Positions 1 to 9,635 of a stretch of DNA of 17,156 nt are shown here, piece by piece. Below the pieces are notes generated by a model. That model was not told the origin of the DNA, did no database searches, and was given only the letters and a program-made list of their open reading frames with translations. This stretch comes from Campylobacteraceae bacterium (GTDB taxonomy: Bacteria > Campylobacterota > Campylobacteria > Campylobacterales > Sulfurovaceae). The stretch lies in contig JALWNF010000115.1 in NCBI GenBank assembly GCA_026995985.1, forward strand, positions 1 to 17,156, read 5' to 3'. How positions within the stretch are numbered: the stretch's first letter is position 1; each line of letters begins with the position of its first letter. A program made the position numbers and the translations under genes.

Positions 1-1153
1 CATTTACAACCACCCCTGTCACCTCATGCCGTGAACCTTTTTTCATGACTCTAGTCTTTTTAGGGTGCAGAACAAACCCCTCCTCTTTAGTAATTTTCTC
101 TACCCAATAGAGCATATTGTTAATCTTCTCATAACTATCAGAAGAAAAAGTCATATCGTCAGCATAACGCGTATAGGTAAAGCCCAATGAGGTAGCAATG
201 CCACTCATTCGTTTATCTAACTTTCGACAGATAAGGTTTGTAATCATAGGACTTGCAGGAGAGCCTTGTGGTAAGTAGCGTCTTCCTGTATATAAAAAAA
301 GCTTTTCACCATCTAAAACAACCTCTTTTTGTTCTGCCTCTGTGGTAAGTAGTGCAAAGATGGTTGCTAACTCTGATGAGTAACCCAAAGATTTAAAAAG
401 CCCTTTAACACGACCATAAGAGAGCGTAGGAAAAAAGTTTTCTAAATCACAATTAATCACTACAGCTTTTCCAATATGAGGCTTAGCGTTACTTACAATA
501 CTTCTCTTCACCACAAAACCATGAGCTTCATCACTTACAGCCACTTTGTTGAGAATGTTCTCTAAAATCCAATATTGCAGACGTTTTAAGTAGGGTTTAG
601 GAGCTGAGATTTCACGAAAACCTCCACTCTTTTTTGCCATTTGAAAATGGACATAGTTTGTTTGGGTAGAGAGCTTTTGAGTATAGGTCAAAAATCGAAG
701 CTCTTTAAGAGTTACTCCCATTTTAGAGGCTAAATCTTTTGCATCTTTAATCAGAAAGAGGTTATTTGCAGTGAGTAGCTCTTGATTGCTCTGTTGTTCT
801 TTTAAATCGGCTATAAAAGATGTTCCTATAAAACCTATCTCTTTCTCTTTTTTCTCTTTTCGTTTGGCTAACTTCTCTTGCTCTTGTTTTTCTCGTTTGG
901 CTTTGGTCTCTTCACGCCTAGCTAGAGCATCTGCCATACGCTGTTTATGTATCTCTTTAATCACCGATTCAGGGTTTCTAATCTTTCGAGAGAGTCCATT
1001 TAGCTCTTTTTGTAGAGCTGTCTTTTTTTCAATGAGTTCTTGTGCTACCTTTGGTTTAGAGCTGTCCCAAAAACCAAGGCGTTTCATCTCACTTAATATG
1101 TAGCTATCTTTGGAGGTCTTTTTTATTTCGTCGTAGAGTTCTTGACGTGTCAT
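1..1153 (-). CDS. Retron reverse transcriptase, C-terminus cut by window edge
   Basis: Translating the minus strand from the ATG at 1153-1151 gives 384 residues without a stop, running off the left edge. A ribosome binding site AGGA lies just upstream. Residues 1-108 form a Lys/Glu/Arg-rich extension, probably coiled coil around 65-107. The polymerase core follows: KSGGFREISAPKPYLKRLQ near 175-193, the retron motif NAKPH (N222-H226, NAxxH), catalytic D236 in INCDLENFFPTL, PQGSPASP at 295-302, YADD at 330-333 and HEVTGVVVN with VTG at 378-380. NAxxH together with VTG marks retron enzymes rather than group II intron or DGR enzymes. By family knowledge it reverse-transcribes its cognate RNA into branched msDNA and usually works with a toxic effector in phage defence. 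The cognate RNA lies directly upstream (1212-1426). The missing C-terminus should hold the thumb, which recognises the msr, and perhaps a fused domain; the effector is not visible. Retron identity is firm, the retron type is not. Confidence 0.95.
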   Translation of the reverse strand, partial: MTRQELYDEIKKTSKDSYILSEMKRLGFWDSSKPKVAQELIEKKTALQKELNGLSRKIRNPESVIKEIHKQRMADALARREETKAKREKQEQEKLAKRKEKKEKEIGFIGTSFIADLKEQQSNQELLTANNLFLIKDAKDLASKMGVTLKELRFLTYTQKLSTQTNYVHFQMAKKSGGFREISAPKPYLKRLQYWILENILNKVAVSDEAHGFVVKRSIVSNAKPHIGKAVVINCDLENFFPTLSYGRVKGLFKSLGYSSELATIFALLTTEAEQKEVVLDGEKLFLYTGRRYLPQGSPASPMITNLICRKLDKRMSGIATSLGFTYTRYADDMTFSSDSYEKINNMLYWVEKITKEEGFVLHPKKTRVMKKGSRHEVTGVVVN

Positions 1154-1211
1154 ATATATATTCCTAATTTTTAAAAGTGTTTGATTTTTAATGAAGTATT
1201 TGGAGAGTTAA

Positions 1212-1426
1212 AAAGTATAAGAGTCTTCGTTGATTCAAATATTAGCCTATTCAACTCGACACAAATAGCACTACTATATGCACTATTTGTTTTTACAAAA
1301 CCACTACGAAATATGCATATAGTAGTGCTATTTGTAATAGTAAAGAATAGGTTAATAAAGCTTTGTTAGACTCTATACAAACATAGCGATACACTATGCA
1401 CATTGCAAGGTTCTCTTATACTTTCT
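1212..1426 (-). ncRNA. Retron msr-msd RNA
   Basis: Transcribed towards the reverse transcriptase, 58 nt upstream of its start codon. From its 5' end: a1 AAAGTATAAGAG (1424-1413); a 7-bp hairpin with one G-U pair and loop UAU (1398-1382); a second hairpin closed by TTTGT/ACAAA with inner TAG/CTA (about 1382-1362); then the msd. The msd begins with a base stem CCTATTC/GAATAGG (1351-1345 with 1252-1246), followed by a perfect 22-bp stem (1335-1314 with 1282-1261) and a 31-nt apical region that can extend the stem through TATTT/AAATA. The 3' end is a2 CTCTTATACTTT (1223-1212), the exact complement of a1. This is the canonical order a1-msr-msd-a2. The branching guanosine may be the G at 1406, in TTGC, 7 nt after a1; this is only a candidate. 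A 62-codon plus-strand reading frame over this region is a shadow. Confidence 0.92.
1261..1335 (-). repeat. Perfect 22-bp inverted repeat forming the msd stem
   Basis: Bases 1261-1282 and 1314-1335 are exact reverse complements separated by 31 bases. Inside the loop, TTTGT and ACAAA can form a small second hairpin. Outside, 1246-1252 pairs with 1345-1351, and three more pairs follow one mismatch. This is the template of the msDNA hairpin. Confidence 0.95.
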
Positions 1427-1433
1427 GAAAAGG

Positions 1434-1439
1434 ATTATA
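1434..1439 (-). promoter_or_regulatory. -10 box of the retron transcript
   Basis: The minus strand reads TATAAT here, placing a start point near 1426, directly before repeat a1 of the retron RNA. There is no good -35 hexamer, only AT-rich sequence, as is usual for sigma-70 promoters in Campylobacterota. It probably drives both the RNA and the reverse transcriptase. Confidence 0.75.
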
Positions 1440-1513
1440 GTATTTTCTATATTAATTAAAACTTAATTTTAAAATTTAATATCTATTTTTTTAGAATTTT
1501 GGCTAAGGTAAAT

Positions 1514-1553: not shown

Positions 1554-1967
1554 ATGAAAAAAATTATAGCCTCACTAGATGAGATAGATAGTGTTGTAAG
1601 CTATCTAAATGAGCTTCTACCAACCTCTGCTATTGTCTTTCTAACAGGAGATTTAGCCTCAGGAAAAACCACCTTAACAAAAGCTATAGCAAAGGCAAAA
1701 GGGATTGAGAGTGAAGTGACCTCTCCTACCTTTTCATTGCAACAGTGTTACGATGAAAACCTATTTCACTATGACCTCTACCGAATAGAAAATGATGAGT
1801 TTATGGAGCTAGGACTCTTTGAAGAGTTTGACAAAGAGGGGTGGCACATGGTAGAATGGGGCGATGAATCTCTTAAGAGCTTTTTATTAGGTGCAGGTTA
1901 TGATGTCTTTACTGTAACCATTGAGCCTTTTGAAGAGAAAAGAATATATAGGATTGAAAAAAACTGA
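1554..1967 (+). CDS. tsaE: tRNA threonylcarbamoyladenosine biosynthesis ATPase TsaE
   Basis: TsaE is the P-loop ATPase that works with TsaB and TsaD to make the universal t6A modification at position 37 of ANN-decoding tRNAs in the cytoplasm. The 137-residue length is normal. The Walker A motif GDLASGKTT is at residues 32-40, followed by family blocks SPTFSL (about 57-62), HYDLYR and the Walker B-like EWGDE. The gene ends in TGATG, overlapping the next start codon by one base, so it should be translationally coupled to lptB. The tsaE-lptB pairing is familiar in Campylobacterota; there rpoN often follows, from memory, but here it does not. The start ATG has only a weak ribosome binding site, and no other start fits the family's N-terminus better. 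Confidence 0.93.
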   Translation: MKKIIASLDEIDSVVSYLNELLPTSAIVFLTGDLASGKTTLTKAIAKAKGIESEVTSPTFSLQQCYDENLFHYDLYRIENDEFMELGLFEEFDKEGWHMVEWGDESLKSFLLGAGYDVFTVTIEPFEEKRIYRIEKN

Positions 1968-9042: not shown

Positions 9043-9537
9043 CTATTTTGACTTTTCAAAATATCCTTTTTCTTTGTTTTTAACTACTCTTTTGTAATCT
9101 TTAATTATTCCATTCATGGATATATATACTCCTCCTTTCTGAATATTCTGTAAATATCCAAAGGCAGCCCCTAAATTAAATGCCGATTCTATAGGATTTA
9201 CAGAATATGGTACCATTGCACCTGTCAATATGATTTTTTTATTTTTCTCCTTTTTTGCAATATATTGAGCAGTTTTGTGCATGGTATCTGTTCCATGAAC
9301 TATAATAATGTGCTCTATTTTAGTCTCTTTTATAGATTGAACAATGATTTCTCGGTCTTCATCAGTCATATAAAGACTATCTTTTCCTATAATATTTTTT
9401 ATTTTAAACTCTGTTAATACTGCTTTAGCAATTGATTTTATAGCTCTACCTGTTGGTTCAATATCTAAATTACCTGTTATTGGGTTATAGACTTTATTAA
9501 AGGTGCCACCTGTATTTAAAATTAATATTTTTTTCAT
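9043..9537 (-). CDS. Single-domain asparaginase-like protein
   Basis: The 164-residue protein matches only the N-terminal domain of type I/II L-asparaginases, which hydrolyse asparagine to aspartate and are normally about 330 residues. The active-site threonines are visible: NTGGTF (T9 and T12), HGTDTM (T83, D84) and the lysine-loop region LTGAM (104-108). The C-terminal dimer-contact domain is absent, and no continuation can be read beyond the stop before the element at 9020. From memory, short proteins ending in a similar YKRVVKN-KGYFE pattern occur across Campylobacterota, so this is probably a real one-domain family rather than a broken gene; activity is uncertain. I place the start at the ATG at 9537, which has a GAGAG-type ribosome binding site; an upstream GTG at 9564 lacks one. 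Confidence 0.75.
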   Translation of the reverse strand: MKKILILNTGGTFNKVYNPITGNLDIEPTGRAIKSIAKAVLTEFKIKNIIGKDSLYMTDEDREIIVQSIKETKIEHIIIVHGTDTMHKTAQYIAKKEKNKKIILTGAMVPYSVNPIESAFNLGAAFGYLQNIQKGGVYISMNGIIKDYKRVVKNKEKGYFEKSK

Positions 9538-9635
9538 ACTTTTCTCTCTTTTCTTTTTTATCACTTTATTTTTTTATTTATATTCTATCTCAATCGTGAT
9601 AAAATGCCACATCAATTTTAATTGGAGATTAATCA

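Follow-up and report, generated by a model that had tools for sequence, protein, structure and literature searches.

A type XIII retron in Sulfurovaceae (Campylobacterota) with a conserved msr-msd RNA and a partner protein predicted to have a sliding-clamp fold

The retron locus

Retrons are systems composed of an RNA and a reverse transcriptase (RT); systems of this kind are known to protect bacteria from viruses. The window analyzed here, that is, the whole stretch of 17,156 nucleotides (G000:C115:1-17156) from a Sulfurovaceae genome, carries at its left end a retron RT gene and, directly upstream of it, an RNA gene with the parts of an msr-msd (Table 1). Both ends of the window cut genes, and the genome assembly (G000) is 82% complete and divided into 275 contigs. 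The RT reading frame comprises 384 codons from the start at 1153 and runs off the contig end; full-length relatives have 482 aa (locus L004) and 518 aa (L002). L004 is the orthologous locus, with an RT 97% identical to that of the window and the same neighbours (tsaE, lptB and atpB, named by eye). The deduced protein contains an RVT_1 domain and the motifs NAKPH (222-226), YADD (330-333) and VTG (378-380), all exactly where the original prediction, made from the DNA letters alone, had located them; NAxxH, YxDD and VTG form the motif set of retron RTs.

On the minus strand the elements follow one another in the order a1, msr hairpin, msd, a2 and RT start, as had been predicted, and a fold check of the 251-nt region resulted in -74.4 kcal/mol (z -7.8), with none of 200 shuffled sequences as low. 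Inverted repeats were exact for a1/a2 (12 of 12 pairs, 1413-1424 with 1212-1223) and for the msd stem (22 of 22 pairs, 1261-1282 with 1314-1335), and the outer msd stem formed 12 of 13 pairs (1240-1252 with 1345-1357). The guanosine at 1406, within the invariant ACCUUGCA that follows a1, is a candidate for the 2'-5' branching position, while the invariant ACGAAG probably corresponds to the start of the reverse-transcribed template. The -10 box claimed upstream of a1 held in part: the hexamer TATAAT is present, but a sigma-70 promoter scan listed nothing at this place, where the exact hexamer (within 1 nt) was found in six of 12 same-family copies (in L009 a TATAAT lies elsewhere). No Rfam family matched at gathering scores across the whole window.

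Table 1. Features of the retron locus and its right flank (window coordinates).
Feature	Position	Strand	Basis
Retron RT, N-terminal 384 aa	2..1153	-	PADLOC RT_XIII, E 5.4e-152; RVT_1; motifs; full-length relatives
a2 strand of retron RNA	1211..1223	-	helix with a1
Invariant ACGAAG adjoining a2	1225..1230	-	identical in all 11 rows of alignment A5
msd long hairpin template	1240..1357	-	outer stem, 24-pair inner stem, terminal hairpin
msr hairpin	1381..1399	-	8 pairs, formed in 100% of cells; both-side changes in 2
Invariant ACCUUGCA directly after a1	1404..1411	-	identical in all 11 rows of alignment A5
a1 strand of retron RNA	1413..1425	-	helix with a2
TATAAT, possible -10 box of retron RNA	1434..1439	-	sequence; present in 6 of 12 same-family copies
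tsaE-like gene (named by eye), right flank of insertion	1554..1967	+	flank comparison in the genus

Type of the reverse transcriptase

Among the PADLOC models, RT_XIII scored highest for the window RT (505 bits, with the runner-up at 258 bits), and together with the partners encoded in L004 the enzyme matches the type XIII retrons defined there by RT_XIII, WGR_XIII, HEAT-ARM_XIII and SWIM_XIII. An RVT_1 domain would also be found in a group II intron, and the locus could in principle be such an intron, or another RT element, with a hairpin upstream by chance. The probability of this is negligible: the group II RT/maturase model TIGR04416 gave 59.1 bits against a cut-off of 300, and the Protein Data Bank (PDB) matches of the L004 RT were led by retron RTs (Ec86, E 7.4e-47), while the best entry named as group II reached E 4.7e-6. 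In the RT tree, the 11 type XIII rows (the window, eight same-family loci, Desertivirga and Methylobacterium) formed a single clade (support 97/99), separate from 11 other retron rows of Campylobacterota and from two group II rows, and the finding of the RNA next to the RT in three phyla (see below) also argues against a group II origin. The tree kept 24 of 29 rows; five of seven group II rows were lost, as phmmer gave no alignment to the core query, so that the group II side consists of two rows, and the tree contains no row from diversity-generating retroelements (DGR). Long branches were present in three other retron rows, and the Methylobacterium row was of unusual composition. Overall, the window RT resembles retron RTs more closely than group II or defence-associated RT (DRT) enzymes. 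The expectation that it would not cluster with group II or DGR enzymes was thus borne out by scores and tree for group II, and for DGR it rests on family scores and on the RNA.

The closest solved RT by sequence is that of Retron-Eco1 (Ec86), whose RNA has the same a1-msr-msd-a2 plan as the type XIII locus. The L004 RT differs in being about 115 residues longer ahead of the aligned RT part (query residue 134 against chain residue 19).

Conservation and covariation of the RNA

Relatives are referred to as Sulfurovaceae as they were placed in the window's own family. Three alignments of the RNA were analyzed: A2 (ten loci, nine distinct rows), A7 (11 Sulfurovaceae copies) and A5 (11 rows, of which nine are from the same family and the others from Desertivirga, Bacteroidota, and Methylobacterium, Alphaproteobacteria). 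RNAalifold predicted 75 pairs on A2, 42 of which change on both sides yet stay paired (13.9 in shuffled alignments); 94.0% of the cells pair, compared with 32-48% when partners were slid. Likewise, 97.4% of 814 cells pair in A7, with both-side changes in 27 of 74 pairs (13.2 in shuffled and 0-6 in slid controls). Two further copies, L112 and L113, which did not enter the derivation of the structure, form 72 and 70 of the 74 pairs, respectively. In the family, a1/a2 is a 13-pair helix, five pairs of which show both-side changes, and the inner msd stem varies in sequence with its pairing kept (both-side changes in 15 of 24 pairs). The a1/a2 pairing and the msd stem, whose loss in relatives had been proposed as the sign of a wrong call, are therefore retained, with compensatory changes in A2 and A7. 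By contrast with these variable helices, ACCUUGCA and ACGAAG are invariant in A5 across Campylobacterota, Bacteroidota and Alphaproteobacteria.

A covariance model trained on the nine Sulfurovaceae rows only was run on 27 sources. It found the RNA directly upstream of the RT both in Desertivirga (71.8 bits, E 1.7e-15) and in Methylobacterium (77.8 bits, E 5.7e-17). Apart from these, the model hit the window and L003, which are training sequences or close to them, and gave two weak matches in the window (E 0.5 and 0.6); no match was obtained in the set's loci of other retrons, in its group II loci or at its empty sites. An msr-msd RNA beside a type XIII RT is thus recovered in three phyla.

Partner genes

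The original prediction placed the effector beyond base 1 or fused to the missing end of the enzyme. The window ends in mid-gene, and the continuation was read in L004, where the first of these proved right and two such genes follow the RT: one for a WGR-HEAT solenoid protein of 1017 aa (WGR_XIII E 4.4e-182; Pfam WGR domain 21.1 bits, cut-off 22) and one for a SWIM protein of 545 aa (SWIM_XIII E 1.1e-232; Pfam SWIM 16.1 bits, cut-off 19.6). The order RNA-RT-WGR-SWIM is shared by six complete same-family loci (L002, L004, L006, L007, L008 and L009), while L003 and L005 stop before the locus is complete. In Desertivirga and Methylobacterium the order is WGR-SWIM-RNA-RT instead, a difference within type XIII. 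WGR_XIII matches were obtained in L002, L004, L006-L010 and L074, and SWIM_XIII matches in L004, L010, L074 and the genomes of L002 and L006-L009; L010 is the locus of Desertivirga arenae and L074 that of Methylobacterium. The WGR/HEAT-ARM and SWIM genes that define type XIII hence lie beside the RT in the relatives. Type XIII differs in these effectors from Retron-Eco1, whose effector is of the nucleoside-deoxyribosyltransferase type.

The two partners differed in conservation. In 21 of 21 pairwise comparisons among seven complete loci, conservation was lowest for the WGR-HEAT protein (26-29% identity to Desertivirga), and in 20 of 21 it was highest for the SWIM protein (55-57% to Desertivirga). 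Such a contrast would suit a sensor or adaptor that diversifies and a conserved actor directed at DNA. The structure model of the WGR protein gave solely matches of HEAT/ARM-solenoid type, with low TM-score. Three loci have a further WGR protein of 482-483 aa immediately following, or close to, their retron genes: L007 (13301-14749), L008 (9719-11167) and L091 (2138-3589); the L008 copy, the sole one scanned, is beta-propeller-like.

In two other loci (L089:2551-7469 and L090:3163-7406) a SWIM protein of 447 aa (SWIM_XIII, 196-207 bits) adjoins a DUF6493-DUF7824-DUF7825 protein, with no RT match in the stretch fetched. This pair may be related to the effectors of type XIII while not belonging to a retron, and its occurrence apart from a retron suggests that an older system of two genes may have been co-opted by the retron.

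Based on these results, the locus is almost certainly a type XIII retron and, as judged from its sequence, a well-preserved member in which no departure from the type was found. Several observations weigh against this assignment. No NCBIfam model, the retron ones included, reached its own cut-off for the window RT (Ec67, 217 bits of 450; St85, 201 of 235; a third, 174), as is to be expected since the results offered no NCBIfam model of this type. One of the five covariation measures on A7, further pair types, did not exceed its control (38 vs. 38.7 shuffled). The share of family pairs that form was only 63% (A2, 45 of 71) to 76% (A5, 54 of 71) in Desertivirga and 65% (47 of 72) in Methylobacterium, all by plain alignment, with slid controls at 27-52% (29-52% for these two rows in A5). 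Finally, the window ends inside the RT, and the WGR and SWIM genes were not found in G000 itself, an absence that is not interpretable because of the completeness and fragmentation of the assembly.

Distribution and genomic context

Searches of named genomes turned up nine related loci. In the family, 32 of 175 genomes gave some RT match, nine of them over the whole query at no less than 74% identity, and 14 of 175 gave an RNA match, including all nine with a whole-query RT; the other five are G142, G143, G156, G158 and G161. A complete RNA lies at a contig end in G158, and parts of it lie at contig ends in G156 and G161. Many genomes are incomplete, and a missing match there does not mean absence.

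In G142 and G143 a complete RNA occurs with no RT gene beside it. In the former (L112:12220-13057, contig C32) the RNA is well paired and the RT is reduced to a short fragment, making it an orphan msr-msd; no WGR match was found there, and just the SWIM end remains, adjoining a TnpB-type fragment. In the latter (L113:879-1101, contig C91) no RT, WGR or SWIM match was detected in the stretch fetched, which takes in the 879 nt between the RNA and the contig end. The window's genome might likewise hold a decayed retron, with its RNA intact and its protein genes lost, in line with these two relatives and with the effectors not found in G000. Such decay appears improbable, as the 384-residue RT frame is open, with intact motifs and near identity to the L004 enzyme, and the contig simply ends in an incomplete, fragmented assembly.

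In the phylum sample, six of 397 genomes scored above threshold, and only the window's own exceeded 500 bits. The other five matches (215-291 bits), one of which, the G013 enzyme, was scanned as L019, were rejected as type XIII, their best models being XI, XI, XII, I-C and I-C. Searches of viral contigs (88 stretches with the pattern) detected no relative, and none of 50 phage records with matches covered 80% of the query. Among 351 plasmid records, one covered at least 80% of it: a Methylobacterium bullatum plasmid carrying a complete type XIII locus (WGR, SWIM, RNA and RT; L074:2760-9788), over which the gene table of the record is blank.

Regarding the insertion site, 25 of the genus's 30 loci have a trpD-like homologue (named by eye) upstream of tsaE, and in 24 of these the distance is at most 150 nt. 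In L004 the retron is placed between these usually adjacent genes and therefore represents an insertion there. Other family copies occupy other sites; L002, for example, adjoins genes resembling, by eye, a type I restriction system. In G161 the tsaE locus (L038) is 98% identical in protein and has an NhaA-type antiporter (by eye) upstream, not trpD or the retron; the partial RNA of this genome is on another contig. Elsewhere in the window, a 173-aa frame (9043-9564) resembles, by eye, a shortened L-asparaginase.

Predicted clamp fold and proposed mechanism

Residues 34-365 of the SWIM protein were predicted to adopt the fold of a two-domain PCNA-type sliding clamp, and there is good reason to consider this modelled fold correct. 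The likeness to PCNA-type clamps lies in the predicted fold; the SWIM protein shares 8-11% identity with them and differs in a long helical insertion (about residues 66-136) and in added C-terminal parts, including the SWIM finger. Other results count against a clamp. The fold comes from one AlphaFold2 model (mean pLDDT 73.4, pTM 0.64) in which the first clamp domain is weaker; hhalign of the SWIM family against 30 DnaN sequences of the order gave nothing (probability 0.6%), a profile search of the SWIM protein in the PDB gave no clamp, and no clamp family was among the 25 of 53 Pfam families listed. Residues 34-365 carry a net charge of -3, and conserved basic residues are lacking in helix 189-195.

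In characterized retrons, RT and multicopy single-stranded DNA (msDNA) keep the effectors inactive until infection (PMC8867640, PMC12548924). By analogy with retrons in general, the type XIII RT would prime from the 2'-OH of the guanosine just after a1 (candidate G1406). Copying of the msd would give a branched msDNA, some 120-130 nt long, which would remain bound to the RT. With less certainty, both partner proteins may be kept inactive by the RT-msDNA complex. The trigger, either a phage protein or DNA ends, might be read by the WGR-HEAT solenoid, which evolves fast. The part acting on DNA might be the SWIM protein, which evolves slowly and is predicted to carry a clamp; it might stop replication, or the traffic of clamps of the host or the phage, and so lead to abortive infection. 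Taken as a whole, a type XIII retron is, with high confidence, the best explanation of the data. Separately, the chances that the effector is directed at DNA or replication at all are about even.

A more specific and rather unlikely proposal, offered tentatively, is that the effector of type XIII retrons is a PCNA-like clamp, a ring or half-ring on DNA whose loading would block replication; here RT-msDNA and WGR-HEAT would keep the SWIM protein off DNA until the msDNA is lost or altered in infection. Alternatively, the locus may be a type XIII retron whose toxicity resides in the WGR-HEAT protein. The SWIM protein would then be an ordinary accessory that binds DNA or RNA, and its modelled likeness to a clamp would be a resemblance in fold, or an error of the model, with no clamp function behind it. 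This combination is a realistic possibility, though not the favoured one, and is consistent with the clamp being known from a single model, with the lack of a link between SWIM proteins and clamps at the sequence level (Pfam, PDB profile and hhalign against DnaN), and with the 447-aa SWIM proteins beside DUF6493-DUF7824-DUF7825, which align to the L004 SWIM protein from residue 140 only.

Implications

Type XIII looks little studied. One paper includes a type XIII retron in a list of predicted defence systems of a Variovorax strain (PMC11953036), and beyond that list the type was named nowhere else in the open-access literature searched by name. In the same literature, nothing apparently relevant was found among the matches listed on retrons together with a sliding clamp or PCNA, or on the SWIM zinc finger together with a sliding clamp, nor anything useful on WGR with SWIM and MolR among the matches listed; a clamp effector mechanism was not met there for any retron. 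Beyond the original prediction, the analysis supplied the type, both effectors and the clamp fold predicted for one of them.

With an RNA that is delimited and tested for covariation, and a model that recovers it in three phyla, msDNA can now be sought directly. The locus adds a retron RNA from Campylobacterota, which could be tried for genome editing. As for the effectors, the predicted clamp fold of one partner is a new clue to how type XIII could work and provides a concrete, testable idea, namely DNA replication as the target. If the SWIM protein does act as a clamp, a two-domain clamp of archaeal and eukaryotic type would be working as a bacterial immune effector.
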